From Clostridiales bacterium (GTDB lineage Bacteria > Bacillota > Clostridia > DUOD01), in assembly GCA_012838995.1 (NCBI GenBank), contig DUOD01000011.1, forward strand, positions 1 through 64,000: a stretch of 64,000 nt of DNA, read 5' to 3'. Every line of letters starts with the position of its first letter. Positions within the stretch are counted from its first letter, which is position 1. Positions 2,915 through 16,227 of the stretch are shown piece after piece. Both the position numbers and the translations under genes were made by a program. A model generated the notes under the pieces. The model was not told where the DNA came from and searched no databases. It saw only the letters and a program-made list of their open reading frames with translations.

Positions 2915-2944
2915 GATTGGGATAATAGAATATTTACAAAAAAC

Positions 2945-3125
2945 AGTTTAGAGGCGCACTTTTTATGAGTAGGTTTATGGAGAAATATGGGCATCTATGA
3001 AATAAACTGAAAGGAAAAAGTGCCGAAGGATATAATACCCATAAATTATATCCTGGTCCTACAGCTAATAACTGTAAGACTGTCATCAAGAAACTTGATG
3101 GAGAGCTAACTGTTTTTATAGAAAG
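2945..3125 (+). promoter_or_regulatory. Lysine riboswitch (L-box)
   Basis: Conserved blocks AGAGGCGCACTTTTTATGAGTA, AAGTGCCGAAGGATAT, CAGCTAATAACTGTAAGACTGTCAT and TGATGGAGAGCTAAC, upstream of asd-dapA-dapB. Confidence 0.93.
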
Positions 3126-3172: not shown

Positions 3173-3202
3173 GGCTGGTTATCATCAACCAGTCTTTTTT
3201 TA
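3173..3202 (+). terminator. Terminator stem of the lysine riboswitch leader
   Basis: GGCTGGTT-loop-AACCAGTC followed by TTTTTTT, just before the asd RBS. Confidence 0.8.
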
Positions 3203-3248: not shown

Positions 3249-4253
3249 ATGAAAGCTTATAATTTAGCAGTTGTAGGCGCCACCGGTATGGTGGGACGAA
3301 AATTTTTACAGATACTGGAAGAGAAGAAACTGCCCATTGAAAATTATTATTTTTTCTCGTCGGCCCGTTCGGCAGGCAAACAAATAGAATTCATGGGGAA
3401 AAAATATACCGTTGAAAAGTTAACCGAAAATGCCCTGGATAATAAAAAAATCGATATCGCATTATTTTCGGCCGGAGGCAGTACAAGTAAAAAATTTGCA
3501 CCTGTTTTTGTATCAAAGGGCTCGGTGGTTATAGATAACAGCAGCGCATGGAGGATGGACGATAAAGTGCCCTTGGTTGTACCGGAGGTAAACCCTGAAG
3601 CAATTAAAAGCCACAAAGGTATAATAGCCAACCCAAACTGCTCAACCATCCAAGCAGTAGTGGCATTAAAACCCCTCCACGACAAATATAAAATAAAGCG
3701 CATTGTATATTCAACATACCAAGCCGTTTCAGGTGCCGGTATGGGCGGTTATCAGGACTTGGAAATGGGCCTTAAGGGCGAAAAACCGAAAAAGTTTCCA
3801 CATCCGATAGCCGGTAACTGCCTACCCCATATAGATGAATTTTTACCCAACGGATATACTAAGGAAGAAATGAAAATGATAAACGAAACCAAAAAAATTC
3901 TCAATGACTATAGCCTGAAGATAACCGCAACAACGGTAAGGGTTCCGGTATTCCACGGTCACAGCGAGTCCATCAATGTTGAATTCGAAAGGGATTTTGA
4001 TCTGGATGAATTGAAACAAACCCTATCCCAAGCACCCGGCATAATAGTTATAGATAACCCGGAAAAACTCGAGTATCCTATGCCCATATATGCCGAAGAT
4101 AAGGATGAAGTATTTGTTGGACGTATAAGAAGGGATGAAAGCGTAAAAAGCGGAGTAAATCTTTGGGTTGTGGCAGACAATATCAGAAAAGGTGCGGCTA
4201 CCAATACCGTGCAAATTGCACAACAGCTGATAAAATTTTGGGAAGAACGGTAA
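3249..4253 (+). CDS. asd: Aspartate-semialdehyde dehydrogenase
   Basis: VGATGMVGRKF, NPNCSTIQ catalytic Cys motif; RBS GAGGAGG. Confidence 0.95.
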   Translation: MKAYNLAVVGATGMVGRKFLQILEEKKLPIENYYFFSSARSAGKQIEFMGKKYTVEKLTENALDNKKIDIALFSAGGSTSKKFAPVFVSKGSVVIDNSSAWRMDDKVPLVVPEVNPEAIKSHKGIIANPNCSTIQAVVALKPLHDKYKIKRIVYSTYQAVSGAGMGGYQDLEMGLKGEKPKKFPHPIAGNCLPHIDEFLPNGYTKEEMKMINETKKILNDYSLKITATTVRVPVFHGHSESINVEFERDFDLDELKQTLSQAPGIIVIDNPEKLEYPMPIYAEDKDEVFVGRIRRDESVKSGVNLWVVADNIRKGAATNTVQIAQQLIKFWEER

Positions 4254-4277
4254 TAAATTTTGGAGGAGATGATTAAT

Positions 4278-5162
4278 GTGAGCATTTTTAAAGGTTCAGG
4301 CGTAGCTATAGTTACACCCTTTAGCGATAAAGGCATAAATTTCGATGCCTTTGAAAGACATATTGAATTCCAGATAGCCAACAAAACGGACGCCATAATA
4401 GTATGCGGTACCACCGGGGAACCATCCACCATGACAAAGGATGAGAAAGAAGCGGTAATAAAGTTTGCCGTTGATAAGGTGAATAAAAGGGTGCCGGTAA
4501 TAGCCGGTACCGGTGGAAATAATACCGCTGAGGTCGTAGAAGCATCGAAAAAGGCTGAGGCTTTGGGAGCTGACGGGTTGCTTGTAGTAACGCCATATTA
4601 CAATAGAGCAACCCAAAGGGGATTGATCGAGCATTATAAAAGAATCAATGATGCTGTTAATATCCCAATAATCGTTTATAACGTACCCGGCCGTACAACG
4701 GTAAACATAACTCCTGAAACCCTAAAGGAATTAAGCAACTTGGAAAATATTAAGGGGATGAAAGAAGCCAGCGGCAATATAGTGCAAATTACCGAAATGG
4801 CCCGATTGTGCGGTGATAAAATCGACCTGTATTCCGGTAACGACGACCATATAGTCCCCGTACTGTCTGTAGGCGGTATTGGCGTAATCTCGGTAGTTGC
4901 TAACATAGCACCCAGGGATACCCATGACTTGGTAATGAAGTTTTTGGACGGCGATATTGTCGGCAGCAGACAACTCCAATTTAAGCTAAATCCATTGGTT
5001 AAAGCGTTATTCCTCGAAGTCAATCCCATTCCAGTAAAAACGGCTTTAAATCTTATAGGCTTTGATGCCGGCAAACCAAGACTGCCCCTTACACCCATGG
5101 CGGATAACAATTTGGAAATATTAAAGAAAAGATTAACAGAATACGGTTTTCAATTAAAATAA
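4278..5162 (+). CDS. dapA: 4-hydroxy-tetrahydrodipicolinate synthase
   Basis: GVAIVTPF, GTTGEPSTM, YNVPGRT, KEASGN motifs. GTG start at 4278 preferred because of the upstream GGAGG; the ORF opens at TTG 4260. Confidence 0.95.
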   Translation: MSIFKGSGVAIVTPFSDKGINFDAFERHIEFQIANKTDAIIVCGTTGEPSTMTKDEKEAVIKFAVDKVNKRVPVIAGTGGNNTAEVVEASKKAEALGADGLLVVTPYYNRATQRGLIEHYKRINDAVNIPIIVYNVPGRTTVNITPETLKELSNLENIKGMKEASGNIVQITEMARLCGDKIDLYSGNDDHIVPVLSVGGIGVISVVANIAPRDTHDLVMKFLDGDIVGSRQLQFKLNPLVKALFLEVNPIPVKTALNLIGFDAGKPRLPLTPMADNNLEILKKRLTEYGFQLK

Positions 5163-5178: not shown

Positions 5179-6399
5179 ATGATAAATGTGGTGGTAATTG
5201 GCTGCAATGGTAAAATGGGTCAGGCTGTAATGAAAGTAGCACAAGAAGATCCAGAGGTTACTGTTGTGGCGGGCATAGATAAATGCCTCGAAGTTAAGAA
5301 TGACTGTATACCCGTTTTTTCAAGCTTAGATAAATGTAATACGAAACCTGATGTAATCATAGATTTTTCCAGGCCTGAAGCCCTATATGATATCATTCAA
5401 TGCGCCAAGGCCAATAAAATTCCCTTGGTTATTGCAACTACAGGCTACTCTGATAAAGAATACCAAATGTTAGAAGACGCTTCCCAGGAAATACCCATAT
5501 TTATTTCCTCCAATATGGCCTTGGGCGTAAATGTAATGGTCGACCTTGTAAAAAAGGCCACCAGCGTGTTGGAAGACGGTTTCGACATTGAAATTATAGA
5601 AAAACATCATAACAAAAAAATAGACGCCCCTAGCGGTACCGCCCTAACCTTGGCAAAATCAATCAACGACGTTCTCCGCAGTTCAAGGAATTTTGTTTTC
5701 GGAAGAGATCCTAAATCAAATAAGCGCTCCTCCTCAGAGATAGGCATCCATGCCGTAAGGGGTGGCACCATAGTGGGTGAACATACCGTACTATACGCCG
5801 GTCGTGATGAGGTATTGGAAATCAAACATACTGCCCTGTCCAGGGAAATATTTGCAGCAGGGTCTATAGAGGCAGCAAAGTATATTGTCAATAAAGAACC
5901 CGGCCTCTATCATATGGAAAATTTAGTATCGGAAAAGAGCCTGGTTACCAATATATACACATCCAATACCGATGCCATGATTACTTTAAACAATATACCG
6001 CAACAACCGAGCATAATAGCCGAAATTTTTAACAGCATTGCCGAAAGAAAGATAAATATAGATATGATAAGTCAAACGGCACCTGTAGACGACCTTGTCG
6101 ACATATCCTTTAGCATGCCCGAGCATCAGCTCAACCAAGCCATTGAATGCATAGGCAAATTTAAAGACAGGCTGCCTAAATTAAGAATGGACATCTTTAC
6201 CGAGGTTACCAAGCTGACGGTAGAAGGCCAGGGAATGGAAAGACAATCAGGAGTTGCAGCAAAAATGTTTAGCATCTTGGCGGAACAGAATATCCAAATA
6301 AAGATAATTACAACTTCAGAAACTAAGATTACCTACATTATAGATCAAATAGACGAAAAGCCAGCCGTGGAGGCAATAACCCGGGCCTTTGGGCTTTAA
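5179..6399 (+). CDS. dapB: 4-hydroxy-tetrahydrodipicolinate reductase with C-terminal LysC-type tandem ACT domains
   Basis: DapB motifs VIGCNGKMGQAV, EIIEKHHNKKIDAPSGTA, GLYHMENL, followed in frame by about 150 aa resembling the aspartokinase regulatory ACT pair (ERKINIDMISQ...DISFSM, GMERQSGVAAKMFSILAEQNIQIKIITTSETKITYIID). Confidence 0.9.
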   Translation: MINVVVIGCNGKMGQAVMKVAQEDPEVTVVAGIDKCLEVKNDCIPVFSSLDKCNTKPDVIIDFSRPEALYDIIQCAKANKIPLVIATTGYSDKEYQMLEDASQEIPIFISSNMALGVNVMVDLVKKATSVLEDGFDIEIIEKHHNKKIDAPSGTALTLAKSINDVLRSSRNFVFGRDPKSNKRSSSEIGIHAVRGGTIVGEHTVLYAGRDEVLEIKHTALSREIFAAGSIEAAKYIVNKEPGLYHMENLVSEKSLVTNIYTSNTDAMITLNNIPQQPSIIAEIFNSIAERKINIDMISQTAPVDDLVDISFSMPEHQLNQAIECIGKFKDRLPKLRMDIFTEVTKLTVEGQGMERQSGVAAKMFSILAEQNIQIKIITTSETKITYIIDQIDEKPAVEAITRAFGL

Positions 6400-6448
6400 A
6401 ACTTAGATTCTAACCCATCACAAACCCTATTTTTCATAAAACAGAATT

Positions 6449-6494
6449 AAAAAGGGAGTTGCGCAAATTGCATCTTTGCACAACTCCCTTTTTA
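6449..6494 (+). terminator. Terminator of the asd-dapA-dapB operon
   Basis: AAAAAGGGAGTTGCGCAAA...TTTGCACAACTCCCTTTTT. Confidence 0.85.
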
Positions 6495-7127: not shown

Positions 7128-8387
7128 TTATTTACAGCCGATGTCCCTTCTAAAATGCATATCTTTAAAGGATATCCTTTTAACGTTTTCATAGGCCTTT
7201 TCTACCGCCCCTTTTAAGGACTCACCCAAGGCAGTTATGCCCAGCACCCTGCCTCCGTTGGTATAATACTTACCATCTTTATACAAAGTACCTGCGTGAA
7301 ATACCATACAGTCGCTGTGGTTTATATCATCCAAGCCCGATATTTCGTACCCTTTTTGGTATGCCTTGGGGTATCCGCCGGAAGCCAATACAATACATGC
7401 GGCAGATCTACTGTCCCATTCCAGCTCAACTTCGTCTAATCTGCCCTCTATCGTTTTAATAAAAATATCCACCAAATCGTTTTTCAACCTAGGGATAACT
7501 ACCTGGGCCTCGGGATCGCCGAATCTTGCATTGTATTCCAGTACTTTAGGGCCCTCCTCTGTAAGCATTAAACCAAAATATAAAACTCCTTTAAAGGGAC
7601 GTCCTTCCTGTTTCATTGCTTTTATCGTCGGATGTACTATTTCATCCATCACCCGTTCATGGACTGCATCCGAATAATAGGGACTGGGAGAAAATGCGCC
7701 CATCCCTCCCGTGTTAGGACCTTCATCATTGTCATACGCCCTTTTATGGTCCTGACTGGTTACCATGGGTAGCACCGTCTCGCCGTCGGTAAAGGCGAGC
7801 AGCGATACCTCGGGTCCCGTTATAAACTGTTCGATTACCACCCTTTGGCCGGCTTGGTTGAAAATTTTCTTTACCATCATATTATCCAGGGCTTCTACCG
7901 CTTCTCCCTTATCCTTGGCTATAATCACACCCTTACCAAGGGCAAGACCGTCTGCTTTGATGACCACCGGGAAAGAACAGCATGTGGTTATGTATTCCCT
8001 GGCATCGACAAAGTTATCAAATACCCTATAGGGGGCAGTGGGAATACCGTATTTTTTCATTAAATCCTTAGCAAAAACCTTGCTACCTTCAATAGCGGCT
8101 GCCGCCTTACTAGGGCCAAAGGCCCTTATTCCTTTTTCCTCTAACTTGTCCACCGCACCTAGAGCCAAAGGATCATCCGGCGCAACCACTGCAAGGTCTA
8201 TTTTATTTTCTACAGCAAATTTTGTGATGCCACCGATATCGGTAGCAGGTATATCAACACATTGTGCCTGCTGGGATATGCCTCCGTTGCCCGGGGCACA
8301 ATATACTTCCTTTACCATACTGCTTTGTCTAATTTTCCATACAAGGGCGTGTTCCCTTCCACCGCCTCCTACTACTAATACCTTCAC
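7128..8387 (-). CDS. purD: Phosphoribosylamine--glycine ligase
   Basis: MKVLVVGGGGREHAL, NTGGMGAFSP, ARFGDPEAQ. Confidence 0.96.
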   Translation of the reverse strand: MKVLVVGGGGREHALVWKIRQSSMVKEVYCAPGNGGISQQAQCVDIPATDIGGITKFAVENKIDLAVVAPDDPLALGAVDKLEEKGIRAFGPSKAAAAIEGSKVFAKDLMKKYGIPTAPYRVFDNFVDAREYITTCCSFPVVIKADGLALGKGVIIAKDKGEAVEALDNMMVKKIFNQAGQRVVIEQFITGPEVSLLAFTDGETVLPMVTSQDHKRAYDNDEGPNTGGMGAFSPSPYYSDAVHERVMDEIVHPTIKAMKQEGRPFKGVLYFGLMLTEEGPKVLEYNARFGDPEAQVVIPRLKNDLVDIFIKTIEGRLDEVELEWDSRSAACIVLASGGYPKAYQKGYEISGLDDINHSDCMVFHAGTLYKDGKYYTNGGRVLGITALGESLKGAVEKAYENVKRISFKDMHFRRDIGCK

Positions 8388-8406
8388 TATCCAATACCTC
8401 CGTATA

Positions 8407-9951
8407 TTAATGCTTAAAATGTCTCATTTTTGTAAATACCATGGCTATACCAAATTCATCGGCCTTTTCTATGGACAGGTTATCCCTTAATGAGCCCCCT
8501 GGCTGGATTATTGCCGTCACACCTGCCTTACCGGCAGCCTCCACACAGTCGGGGAAAGGGAAGAAGGCATCCGAAGCCAAAACCGCACCCTTTATTTTTT
8601 CCCCGCTTCTTTCCACTGCCTGGGTGGTTGCCCATATTCTATTCACCTGACCGGGACCTATGCCCAGGGTTTGTTTATCCTTGCAAATAGCAATACCGTT
8701 GGATTTAGTGTGTTTTACCACCTTCCAGGCAAATAACAAATCCTCCATCTCTTTATCGGTGGGTTTCCTTTTGGTAACCACCTCGAGATTTTCCATGTCA
8801 ATTAAGATGTTGTCAATGTCCTGAACCAAAAGCCCACCGCCCACCTTTTTCATGTCCAGGGCGGTAGCCGGTAATTTAGTTGATATATCCTCCAGTTGCA
8901 ACAATCTTATATTTTTCTTTGACTTAAGTACCTCAAGTGCCTCCTGGGTAAAGGACGGTGCAACAACTATCTCAATGAAAATCTTATTTATTTCTTCCGA
9001 CGTCCTTTTGTCTATTTCTCTGTTGGCAGCCACGATACCGCCAAATATGGATACCGGATCGGATTGATAGGCCTTCATGTAGGCATCGTAAATATTGTCG
9101 GCGCTGCCTACACCACAGGGATTGGCATGTTTTACTGCCACAACGGTGGGTTCCTCAAATTCCTTGAGCAAATCTAAAGCTCCGTTGGTATCGTTTATAT
9201 TATTAAAGGACAGCTCCTTACCGTGCAACTGTACAGCCTGTGCTATGCTTCCCTTAACGGGTAGCACTTCCTTATAAAAGGCTGCAGCCTGGTGGGGATT
9301 TTCGCCGTATCTCATATCCTGGATCTTCTCAAAGGTTATGGTGAGCTTTTGAGGGAATTTCCCTAAGCCCTTATAATTCCTCAAATAACCCGCTATCATG
9401 GTATCGTACTGGCTGGTATGTTCAAAAACCTTCAGCGCCAAACTGTACCTTGTATCCGGTGTTGTATTGCCATTGGCTTTAATTTCATCCAATACCCTCT
9501 CATAATCCCCGGGATCCACCACAACGGTCACGTCTCGGTAATTCTTGGCCGCCGAACGCAGCATGGTAGGTCCGCCTATATCGATATTTTCTATGGCCTC
9601 CTCCAGGGTTACCCCGGACTTCATAATGGTATGTTTAAAGGGATACAGGTTAATTACCACCATATCTATCGTGTCAATGCCCAGTTCCTTCAACTGCTTC
9701 ATATGCTCTTCATTATCCCTAACAGCCAATAATCCGCCATGTATCTTTGGATGAAGGGTTTTCACTCTACCGTTTAAACATTCAGGAAAACCCGTAATAT
9801 CCGATACATTTATTACATCAATCCCTGCATCGCTTAAAACCCTGGCGGTACCGCCGGTGGATATTATTTCAACCCCTAGGCTATTTAAACCCTTTGCAAA
9901 TTCAACAATTCCCGTCTTATCCGACACACTTATTAAAGCCCGCTTAATCAT
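8407..9951 (-). CDS. purH: Bifunctional AICAR formyltransferase/IMP cyclohydrolase
   Basis: [30 protein letters not shown]. Confidence 0.96.
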
Positions 9952-9953
9952 AT

Positions 9954-10592
9954 TTATTCCTCCTTTTTAGTTATTGACACCCATCGTCCGTCTACCTTGA
10001 GCCTGCCCTCTACCAGCAATTTAACGGCCAGCGGCAATAACTTATGTTCAACCTCCAACACCCTTTTGGAAAGAGTGTCTACGGTATCCCCTTCCTGCAC
10101 TTCCACTGCCTGTTGCAAAATTATGGGGCCGGTATCGGCCTGTTCGTCAACGAAATGGACGGTGGCGCCGGTTAGCTTTACTCCGTAATCCAAAACGGCT
10201 TTATGTACCCTGCTGCCGTAAAACCCCATACCGCAAAAACTGGGAATTAACGAAGGATGGATGTTTATTATCTTATACCTATATGCATCTACAATTTCCG
10301 GTGCCAGTATGCTTAGGTAACCGGCAAGCACTATATAATCAATGTCATTTTCTTTTAATACCTTTAATAAATGCCTATTGTACTCATGCTTATCCTTAAA
10401 CTCTGCCGGTGTAATTACACAGCCGGGGATTCCCGCCCCTCGTGCCCGTTCCAAAGCGAAAACCCCGGCCTTGTTGGAAATAACAATGGCGATCCTGCAA
10501 CCCTTTATATATCCGCTGTCAATAGCATCTATTATGGCTTGTAGATTGCTCCCACCGCCGGATACCATAACGGCTATTCTTTTTTGCTGCAT
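9954..10592 (-). CDS. purN: Phosphoribosylglycinamide formyltransferase
   Basis: [27 protein letters not shown]. Confidence 0.95.
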
Positions 10593-11611
10593 ATGTCAAC
10601 ACCCGTCTCTCCCTTTATTACTTCCCCGATTACATATACATTATAGTCAAAGGAACTTGATATTTTAAGTACATCGTCGGCTGAACGCCTATCCACCGCC
10701 AGCACCATACCTATACCCATGTTAAAGGTATTAAACATCTGTCTATCCTCAAGTCCGGACATGGATTTTATTATGGAGAAAATTGGCGGTATCTCCCATC
10801 TTTCTTTATGCACAATAGCCCTTAGTCCCTCGGGAAGCATCCTGGGTATATTTTCAATAAAACCGCCCCCTGTTATATGGGCAATGCCTTTAATTCTAAC
10901 CTTTTCAAGAATTGTAAAAACGTCTTTGACGTATATCCTGGTGGGCTTTAGCAGTTCCTGGCCGTAGGTACAACCCAAATCTTCGCAATACTGATCCAAA
11001 ACATTTTTATCATCCACCATCAACCTTCTGACCAGTGAATATCCGTTACTGTGCAGGCCTGAGGATGACAGACCTATCAATACATCGCCGTTTTTAATTT
11101 CGTTGCCCGTTATTATTTTATCCCTGTCAACCATACCCACTGCAAAACCTGCCAAATCATATTCGCCATTTTTATAAAACCCGGGCATCTCAGCCGTTTC
11201 CCCGCCGATTAGGGCACAACCGGACTGCTTACAGCCCCCTGCCACTCCTTCCACGACGGCGGCCATTTTTTCGGGCTCCAGCTTGCCGGTGGCGATGTAA
11301 TCGAGAAAAAACAAAGGTCTAGCCCCTTGGCATACAATGTCATTGACGCACATGGCCACGCAGTCCTGACCAATGGTATTGTGGATATCCATTAGAAAGG
11401 CAATCTTTAATTTGGTGCCCACACCGTCGGTGCCGGCAACCAATACAGGTTGCTTCATCCCTTGGGTGTCCAGGGCATATAAACCGCTGAAGCTTCCTAT
11501 GCCCCCAAGCACATTTTCATTGTGGGTACCGGCCACATGTTTCTTCATAAGCTCAACGGCTTTATACCCAGCACGTATATCTACACCGGAATCTTCATAA
11601 CTAATCGCCAT
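10574..11611 (-). CDS. purM: Phosphoribosylformylglycinamidine cyclo-ligase
   Basis: [45 protein letters not shown]. Confidence 0.96.
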
Positions 11612-13046
11612 TTTTATCCTCCCGCCTTTTACATTTTTTGTCTCCTTTGTTCAGACAGGATACCTCCATAGGATATCGACCGTCAAAGCATCCCGTACAA
11701 AACTGGCAGCTACTTCCCTCCACCGTTTTTAACAAAGATTCAATACTTATATATCCAAGACTATCGGCGCCTATAAGCTTCTCGATTTCCTCCACCGTAT
11801 ATGCAGCACCTATCAGTTGTTTTGTGGAAGGCGTATCCATGCCAAAATAACAGGGCGATACGACGGGGGGTGAGCTTATTCTCATATGCACTTCCCTGGC
11901 ACCGGCCGTCCTTAGCATATCCACTATCATCTTACTGGTGGTACCCCGTACAATGGAATCGTCCACCATGGCTATTCTCTTGCCCTGTACCATTTTCCTT
12001 AAAGCATTCAACTTGATACGAAGGGCCTGTTCCCTCATGGATTGGCTGGGCTGGATAAAGGTCCTGCCCACATACCGGTTTTTTATCAAGCCCTCTCCAT
12101 AGGGAATATTGCTTTGCTCCGCAAAGCCAATAGCAGCGGTGGTACCCGAATCGGGAACACCGATCACCATATCCACATCGGCGGGATGTTCCATGGCCAG
12201 ATACCTGCCCGCATCCATTCTTGCCTGGTATACGCTGATGCCGTCAATGATGCTGTCCGTCCTGGCCAGATATACAAACTCAAATATACACAGGCCGGAC
12301 TTTAACGGCACCTCGGTTTGGATGGAAGTCAAGCCGTTTTTATCTATAATTATAATTTCTCCCGGCTTAACATCCCTTATATAATCGGCTCCTATTACAT
12401 CAAAGGCACAGGTTTCCGATGCCAAGACATATGAATTGTTTATCTTGCCCAAAGCCAGCGGCCTTATGCCATGGGGATCCCTTATGCCGATAAGTTTATC
12501 CTTTGCCATCATGGTAATTGCATATGAGCCCTTAATCCTTCTTAAGGTTTTTTTAACGGCGGTTACCAAATCCTGGTCCCTATACTGGGCAATCAATGTT
12601 GCAATTACCTCACTGTCGATGGAGGTCTGAAATATTGCCCCGCTTTCTTCCAGTTCCTGCCTAAGTTCTAATGCATTGGTCAGTTTACCGTTATGGGCCA
12701 GGGCTATATCTCCGCCCTTGTATTTTATTACAAGGGGCTGGGCATTTACCGTATGACAATCACCGGCAAGGGAATGTCTTACATGCCCTATCGCGATATT
12801 ACCCCTATCAAGCTGTTGCAATTTTTCCATGGTAAATACATCAACCACAAGGCCCATTTGCTTGTGGTATATAATTCCCCTTTCGGTTGACACGGCAATA
12901 CCGGCACTGTCCTGTCCCCTGTGCTGAAGGGCGTATAACCCGTAATAACATATATCAACACAGTCAATGCCGTCCACATCATATATGCCAAATACACCGC
13001 ACTCTTCCCTTGGTTTGTCCAATAAAAAGTCTGACTTATAAAGCAT
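11601..13046 (-). CDS. purF: Amidophosphoribosyltransferase
   Basis: [33 protein letters not shown]. Start reset to MLYKSDF at 13046 after an AGGAG RBS; the ORF track start at 13268 overlaps purC. Confidence 0.94.
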
Positions 13047-13077
13047 GTTGTTGTCTCCTGTCACTAAATTCACTTCC

Positions 13078-13788
13078 CTATTTAGCACCCATAAGTCTGT
13101 TGAGTATTTCCTGATAGGCCTCTTCCACATTGCCCAGATCCCTTCTGAACCTGTCCTTATCCAGCTTTTCACCGGTGGTAGAATCCCAGAACCTGCATGT
13201 ATCCGGTGAAATCTCATCGGCCAATACAATTCCGCCCTTGAAACGTCCGAACTCCAACTTAAAATCAATTAAATCTATTTTTAAATCCTTTAAATAATCC
13301 CTTAATAAATCGTTAACCTTAAAGGCCATTTGGGAAATGGTTTTTATCTCCTCAGGTATTGCCAGGTCCATGGCATAAATATGGTATTCATTCACCATAG
13401 GATCTCCCAGGTCATCGTTTTTGTAGCAAAACTCCAGCACAGTACGTTTAAGCACCGTGCCCTCGGGTATCCCCAGCCTCTTTGACAGGCTGCCGGCGGC
13501 AATGTTTCTTACTATCACTTCAACGGGGATTATTTCCACCTTTTTTACTATGGTCTCACGATCACTTATTTCCTCTATATAGTGAGTATCTATGCCCGAT
13601 CTTTCCAGTAGCCCGAACAGATGGTTGGATACCTTGTTATTTACCACGCCTTTGCCTATTATGGTTCCCTTTTTTAAACCGTTAAAAGCCGTGGCATCAT
13701 CCTTATATTCAACTATACACCTATCTTCCATATCGGTTTTATACACTTTTTTAGCCTTACCTTCATATAACAAATCCAGCTTTTTCAT
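13078..13788 (-). CDS. purC: SAICAR synthase
   Basis: [30 protein letters not shown]. Confidence 0.96.
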
Positions 13789-13790
13789 AT

Positions 13791-14288
13791 TTAGTCTATC
13801 TCCTTCCCTATCTTTGCATCCTTCTTTTTCACTTCTTCTGCCATTGAGGACCGGAAGTCTTCCAGTTTTTCAACTAAATGTGTATACTTTAACGACAAAA
13901 TTTGTGCGGCCAGCAAACCGGCATTCCTTGCACCATCGATGCCTACCGTTGCAACCGGAATACCGGGGGGCATCTGTACTATCGAAAGCAATGCATCCAT
14001 GCCATCCAGTACCGACCCCTTTATAGGAATACCTATTACCGGTACCGTAGTATAGGCAGCCAGCACCCCGGGTAAATGGGCAGCCATACCGGCGGCTGCG
14101 ATTATTACATCAAAGCCGTTTTCACGAGCCTTGCCGGCAAATTCCGCCGCTTGGTCCGGGGTACGATGGGCTGAAATTACCCTTGCCTCCACATCGATAT
14201 CCATATCCTTGAGCACCTTAATAGCCTTTTTGACCACGGGAAAGTCAGAGTCGCTTCCCATGATGACGGCAACCTTTGGTTGTTTCAT
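13791..14288 (-). CDS. purE: 5-(carboxyamino)imidazole ribonucleotide mutase
   Basis: [26 protein letters not shown]. Confidence 0.96.
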
Positions 14289-15923: not shown

Positions 15924-15967
15924 TAAAAACGTAATTGTGGCAGATAAGGAACAATCCACCGAATGTA

Positions 15968-16042
15968 TTTCACCCATAGTCAAGCAATTTCCGGTTGCTT
16001 GGTAGAAACGTTCGGACCATATTACCGAATTTATATGAGCGT
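15968..16042 (-). promoter_or_regulatory. Purine riboswitch, guanine/hypoxanthine class
   Basis: Minus strand CGCTCATATAAATTCGGTAATATGGTCCGAACGTTTCTACCAAGCAACCGGAAATTGCTTGACTATGGGTG; a C in GACTATG indicates guanine rather than adenine. Confidence 0.94.
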
Positions 16043-16227
16043 TATTAAATTATATTTAAATATTAACAGAAGAAGGGACCGGTGTCAATAAGGACTAGAA
16101 CATTTATTGATGATTTGGGCAAAATGTTCGGATTTTTCGTCACGGACCATCATGTTGTAACACTATATATAATTTAATCATATATTGTTATATAGCCAGA
16201 TATATATATTTTTAGGAGGTATGTAAC

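Follow-up and report, generated by a model that had tools for sequence, protein, structure and literature searches.

A conserved family of DapB reductases with an aspartokinase-type ACT pair, predicted to respond to lysine

Lysine feedback is taught at aspartokinase (AK) and at DapA; DapB (4-hydroxy-tetrahydrodipicolinate reductase) is generally regarded as unregulated by the end products of the pathway. Why, then, does a clostridial dapB gene run on, in frame, into what looks like the regulatory half of an aspartokinase? The gene lies at 5179-6399 (plus strand) of a 64,000-nucleotide stretch of a Clostridiales genome (contig DUOD01000011.1), which we call the window. A preliminary description, made from the sequence alone, had read its product as a complete DapB of about 250 residues followed by about 150 residues that closely resemble the regulatory ACT pair of LysC.

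The domain searches bear out both halves of this reading. The 406-amino-acid ORF has an ATG start preceded by an AAGGAG box and forms a single continuous frame. Its DapB part (residues 1-250; 5179-5928) matches NCBIfam TIGR00036 as a full-length DapB with 233 bits (cut-off 122), while Pfam places DapB_N at residues 2-113 (106.7 bits) and DapB_C at residues 116-249 (156.3 bits), both above their cut-offs. We searched for the nucleotide loop GxxGxMG and the catalytic motif HHxxKxD(A/S)PSGTA. The first is present as GCNGKMG at residues 8-14 and the second as EKHHNKKIDAPSGTA at residues 141-155; ATTGYSD is also intact. H143, H144, K147, S152, G153, and T154 are invariant across 21 aligned fusions. 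Judged by these motifs, the DapB half is catalytically intact.

The remainder of the protein (residues 251-406; 5929-6399) is an ACT pair of the AK type. Pfam matches ACT_9 in two stretches (90.5 bits), ACT_7 (54.6 bits), and ACT (39.9 bits), all above cut-offs. Residues 246-406 are colinear with the AK regulatory region, aligning to positions 243-403 of the 407 in NF005155 (119 bits), and the closest solved structures are all AK regulatory domains (3l76, 2re1, 5yei, and 2dtj; E down to 2e-36). That the protein is itself an aspartokinase is ruled out by the absence of an N-terminal amino-acid-kinase domain: the aspartokinase model TIGR00657 aligns only over positions 288-441, and its 85.7 bits fall below the cut-off of 208.7.

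We also predicted the structure of one monomer from the alignment of 21 fusions; an ACT dimer lies outside the reach of such a model. The expected elements are present in both parts, including two ACT-like strand/helix units, with a pLDDT of about 90-95 over most of the ACT pair. The pTM is 0.62, and the placement of DapB relative to the ACT pair is uncertain. There is no linker, as the last DapB helix (246-253) leads almost directly to the first strand of the ACT pair (258). A Foldseek search with the model ranks solved DapBs first and AK structures next. The protein shares with DapBs the whole reductase, its nucleotide-binding and catalytic motifs, and a dap operon setting. However, solved and curated DapBs stop at about residue 250-270, whereas the fusion adds 156 residues of AK-type regulatory domain.

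The fusion recurs widely. The preliminary description had proposed a taxonomic survey, and we find the full-length fusion, without a stop, in 22 of 391 genomes sampled from the class (counting the source genome), spread over eight families. In about 15 further genomes of this sample, dapB is closely trailed by a separate ACT frame. A scan for this type of ACT pattern across about 85,000 species genomes identified 354 relatives. The best 80 of these comprise 24 fusions, 23 stand-alone ACT genes behind dapB, 32 AKs bearing the same ACT type, and one fragment. Named fusion carriers include Caldicoprobacter algeriensis and C. oshimai (both cultured) and a Mahella sp. MAG. We gathered 30 non-identical fused sequences in all. 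Because the same fusion recurs in other genomes, it is no chance occurrence, and we reject a frameshift or a chimeric contig as its source. On this comparative evidence, we regard the fusion as a real, old, conserved, and maintained family. In one MAG (UBA5454), two fused copies that are 92-95% identical lie on separate contigs (L045 and L047), reflecting either a strain mixture or a recent duplication.

The stand-alone ACT-pair gene lies directly 3' of dapB in Ruminiclostridium papyrosolvens, Petroclostridium, and Monoglobus; one more genus, from the phylum sample, is probably Caldicellulosiruptor. It is annotated merely as an “ACT domain-containing protein”, for example in Monoglobus pectinilyticus. 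The loci of this layout in these genera are L084, L075, L102, L103, L108, L114, L149, and L150.

Outside the Firmicutes, the fusion is carried by four Desulfobacterota and three Spirochaetota MAGs, whose ACT pairs form one subclade (support 100/95). Neither a lysine riboswitch nor a lysine operon around the gene was detected at the Spirochaetota and Desulfobacterota loci scanned. No second DapB was found in the six genomes tested from these phyla (an extra match in G391 is an ACT region). With the fusion as the only DapB found there, these organisms must rely on it for the reaction, provided that they make DAP by the DapB route. Their own subclade and their own gene contexts make horizontal transfer likelier than contamination, although the MAG origin leaves some doubt. 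The contexts vary. In two Desulfobacterota loci (L046 315-2547 and L061 4456-6471), a GntR/FCD-type regulator gene directly precedes the fusion, and L061 also has SDR, Asp/Glu racemase-like, and NMT1-like genes as neighbors. Two Spirochaetales MAGs (L048 4249-7226 and L096 2570-5087) have a DHDPS-family gene on the opposite strand, then dapB-ACT, then a TyrA-like dehydrogenase gene. In a Spirochaetes MAG (L073 605-1825), dapB-ACT adjoins MttB and MtmB methylamine methyltransferase genes.

In the window, dapB-ACT is the last gene of an operon ordered lysine riboswitch, asd, dapA, dapB-ACT. The riboswitch claimed earlier is indeed present: a lysine aptamer (RF00168) lies at 2941-3116 on the plus strand (Rfam, full model, 126.2 bits, E 2.1e-33). 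Between it and asd, a terminator-like hairpin at 3173-3201 (plus strand; 8-bp stem, then TTTTTTT) is a probable attenuator, located by a consensus scan that finds, in this region, as many sites of this kind as shuffled sequence yields on average. The 334-amino-acid asd ORF (aspartate-semialdehyde dehydrogenase, named by sequence and operon position; 3249-4253) and the 300-amino-acid dapA ORF (4-hydroxy-tetrahydrodipicolinate synthase; 4260-5162) follow on the plus strand. A 20-bp inverted repeat at 6448-6494, listed on the minus strand by the terminator-like scan, is the probable operon terminator.

This arrangement is shared among relatives. Orthologues of asd occur in most fusion operons, and orthologues of dapA occur in both fusion and stand-alone-type operons. 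We detected a lysine riboswitch upstream of eight of the nine Firmicute fusion loci scanned (it was not found at L043), in addition to the window's own. Lysine riboswitches also precede stand-alone-ACT operons and dapB-dapH-lysC operons, and in Geosporobacter and Clostridium tyrobutyricum one lies directly before a lone lysC with the ISQT signature described below. A survey of lysine riboswitches, which nowhere mentions an ACT domain, records asd-dapA-dapB for Mahella and Caldicellulosiruptor and dapA-dapB for C. cellulolyticum (PMC5584792).

The ACT junction retains a trace of where the module came from. AKs of the alpha2beta2 type have their beta subunit translated from an internal start where the ACT pair begins. 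In-frame overlapping genes have also been stated in the literature (PMC8690038). We find a Shine-Dalgarno sequence at this start in 28 of 32 ISQT-type (lysine-type) AKs and in 13 of 14 canonical AKs, among them the source genome's own LysC (aaggaggtagaaaaaGTG). The start of stand-alone genes falls at the corresponding position, and 26 of 33 show a Shine-Dalgarno match. Among the fusions, by contrast, just 1 of 30 has a Shine-Dalgarno-like match at the junction. The preliminary description had taken the gene to encode a single protein, a reading that a separate start near 5930 would have contradicted. No start or ribosome-binding site was found there: the sole ATG nearby (5914), which belongs to the DapB motif GLYHM, is not preceded by a Shine-Dalgarno sequence, and the other fusions, with that one exception, lack one too. 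The loss of this signal in fusions, set against its retention in AKs and stand-alone genes, suggests that the module is a freed AK beta subunit that was then tied to DapB.

Phylogeny places the fused ACT pairs apart from AKs. A tree of 111 ACT pairs, drawn from the midpoint and with the canonical-AK branch picked as root by choice, places the fused pairs in one group (97/86) and the stand-alone pairs in a second (100/99), and separates both groups jointly from all AKs (99/97). The sister of the fused clade thus comprises the ACT pairs encoded directly behind dapB. The nearest AKs carry the ISQT signature and are in many cases encoded in asd-dapA-dapB-dapH-lysC operons, while the canonical AKs, including the source genome's LysC, form a single long branch (100/100). 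A DapB tree, built by a quick method with SH-aLRT support only and a weak backbone, broadly matches the ACT tree and clusters 27 of 28 fused DapBs; stand-alone-type DapBs cluster elsewhere, with some plain DapBs intermixed. Fused and stand-alone genes share their place in the dap operon and, in most cases, the ISQ signature. They differ in that the stand-alone gene is separate, with its own start codon and usually a Shine-Dalgarno box.

From these sequence comparisons, the module most likely derives from an AK beta subunit that kept its place in the dap operon, was stripped of its kinase half, and became joined to DapB. A fuller history can be offered only tentatively. An AK may have lost its catalytic half inside a lysine operon, the orphan beta subunit becoming a DapB-specific lysine sensor. 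One lineage (Ruminiclostridium, Monoglobus, and others) would have this sensor as a separate subunit; in the sister lineage it would be fused to DapB, the fusion later spreading to other phyla. As the stand-alone and fused pairs are sister clades, the tree gives no order between the two states. Among the matches listed for 100 relatives, lysine-type LysC (11 genomes) and a stand-alone or fused ACT pair (23 genomes) never co-occur; at p of about 0.05, ignoring kinship, this mutual exclusion is suggestive only. Two assemblies labeled as other phyla group tightly with Clostridia: the lysC of Lutibacter sp. B2 (L095, labeled Bacteroidota) and the whole dap operon, including lysC, of Calditrichales MX18-03 (L063, labeled Calditrichota). 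These are likely mislabeled or contaminated assemblies, or recent transfers.

Effector-site segments of the ACT pair are conserved. The ACT1 segment NIDMISQTAPV (6055-6087, plus strand) is equivalent to the region 292-301 of Corynebacterium glutamicum AK, and the ACT2 segment ITTSETKIT (6307-6333, plus strand) to residues 378-386; both are among the most conserved stretches of the pair. ACT pairs of fusions, of stand-alone genes, and of lysine-operon AKs share the ISQT signature in ACT1, which is unlike that of canonical AKs. In ACT2, T378, T379, S380, E381, and T382 (P0001 numbering) are invariant in 21 fusions. Equivalents of C. glutamicum AK Q298, S381, and E382 are retained in 93-100% of fusions; for sites of this kind, mutations that alter AK feedback have been listed (PMC10464499). 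The window protein keeps Q298, N372, I375, S381, and E382 but has other residues in place of D274, G277, A279, and N374. Compared with the AK beta subunit (C. glutamicum LysC type, PRK06635 group; PDB 2dtj/3aaw), the fusion shares the full-length tandem ACT pair, with its TSE and Q298 equivalents. It differs in having neither a kinase domain nor its own start, in its reductase partner, and in the ACT1 D-K-P-G loop. This loop of canonical AKs is lost in fusions, with the equivalents of D274, P276 (in part), G277, and A279 altered, so the identity of the ligand is not readable from the pocket. Full-length AKs of the lysine-operon type share this loss, which thus need not mean loss of binding. 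Both halves of the fusion are under purifying selection: comparisons of close fusion pairs give dN/dS values of 0.03-0.12 for the DapB and ACT parts alike.

We propose that the ACT pair senses lysine and throttles DapB, a reading to which we give a probability of about 0.6. Amino-acid feedback on DapB, which the preliminary description had suggested, is the interpretation that fits best. The ACT type is typical of lysine-controlled AKs, so lysine is the most likely ligand. The ACT pairs of two subunits would dimerize as in AK beta subunits, and L-lysine, the end product of the pathway, would bind at their interface. The bound pair may then restrain the nucleotide-binding domain of DapB through the C-terminal DapB helix, such that reductase activity would fall when lysine is plentiful. 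Such feedback would add an enzyme-level layer on top of the riboswitch. It would also have moved from a lysine-specific AK, on which it would act in relatives, to the branch-specific DapB after loss of that AK. Furthermore, the existence of the fusion predicts that the stand-alone ACT proteins are regulatory partner subunits of DapB.

DapB might instead be allosteric with another effector, such as threonine, methionine, meso-DAP, or some other metabolite, or the effector might activate it. The ACT1 pocket, which is unlike that of AKs of known specificity, and the varied neighborhoods of the non-Firmicute genes would fit this explanation. However, lysine riboswitches recur at Firmicute fusions, stand-alone genes, and related AKs, and we consider a different effector unlikely, while granting it some plausibility.

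A purely structural role, in stability, oligomerization, or holding DapB near DapA or Asd, with ligand binding lost, seems to us quite unlikely. The fused ACT pairs do diverge more than the DapB parts (mean pairwise identity of 46% versus 57%), and some are highly divergent (G069 and G071). Yet purifying selection is of similar strength on both halves in close pairs, and conservation of the ISQT and TTSET segments points to retained ligand binding.

It is improbable that the ACT pair serves in trans as an AK regulatory subunit, joining DapB and AK in one complex. The preliminary description had raised a supply of the ACT module in trans to an AK, and had proposed checking whether the genome's LysC lacks ACT domains. 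In favor of such a role are the module's homology to the AK beta subunit and the alpha2beta2-like (canonical, PRK06635-group) AKs present in the source genome, G036, G064, and G019. However, the source genome's only full AK (G000:C9; 407 amino acids, PRK06635 group, in an ACT protein-hom-lysC cluster) turns out to have its own ACT pair, 35% identical to that of the fusion, as well as its own internal beta-subunit start. Moreover, we saw no alpha2beta2-type AK in four genomes that carry the fusion: the AK found is of PRK08210 type only in G041 and of PRK09034 type only in G071, while G003 and G069 each have a PRK08210-type AK plus one of 464-468 amino acids, judged by length and model span. Barring a missed AK, a beta-subunit role is not expected of the ACT pair in these genomes. 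The stand-alone form likewise persists in G021, G025, G058, and G085, where the sole AK found has 450-461 amino acids (PRK09034 in the two typed). Finally, a hidden frameshift or internal start, yielding two proteins or an assembly artifact, is very improbable: the layout with its own start does occur in relatives, but the frame is clean in 22 genomes and two cultured Caldicoprobacter species, and the junction has no Shine-Dalgarno sequence.

Enzymes that receive end-product feedback through an ACT or ACT-like module at the C-terminus include 3-phosphoglycerate dehydrogenase, prephenate dehydratase, and threonine deaminase. The fusion shares their layout of a catalytic domain followed by a C-terminal ACT module. 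It differs in that its module derives from the enzyme that opens the same pathway, and in that the step that would be regulated, DapB, is no classical committed step. ACT-regulated biosynthetic enzymes are common, but in the papers searched we found no report of DapB as one: a literature search for DapB with an ACT domain, a fusion, or a regulatory domain returned no description of this fusion. If our reading is correct, DapB would be feedback-regulated here by a regulatory subunit that had passed from one enzyme of the pathway to another, and the common “ACT domain-containing protein” behind dapB would gain a predicted role. Should the fusion prove sensitive to lysine, a substantial group of anaerobes would control the DAP/lysine pathway differently. 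The series from AK with an internal beta start, through stand-alone ACT gene, to fused ACT pair offers a clean case of a regulatory subunit switching its catalytic partner, and makes the transfer of allostery directly testable.

The source genome also encodes a second, ACT-free DapB of 284 amino acids (G000:C5:15885-16739; L146 886-1740, minus strand; TIGR00036 247 bits). It carries PSATA instead of PSGTA, adjoins a GntR-like gene, and has similar paralogues in many relatives. It is either a true DapB or another dehydrogenase; if a true DapB, it would allow control through the fusion to be bypassed. Further downstream in the window lies an ordinary purine biosynthesis operon (7128-14288, minus strand), with a purine riboswitch upstream of it at 15957-16058 (minus strand, 91.6 bits).
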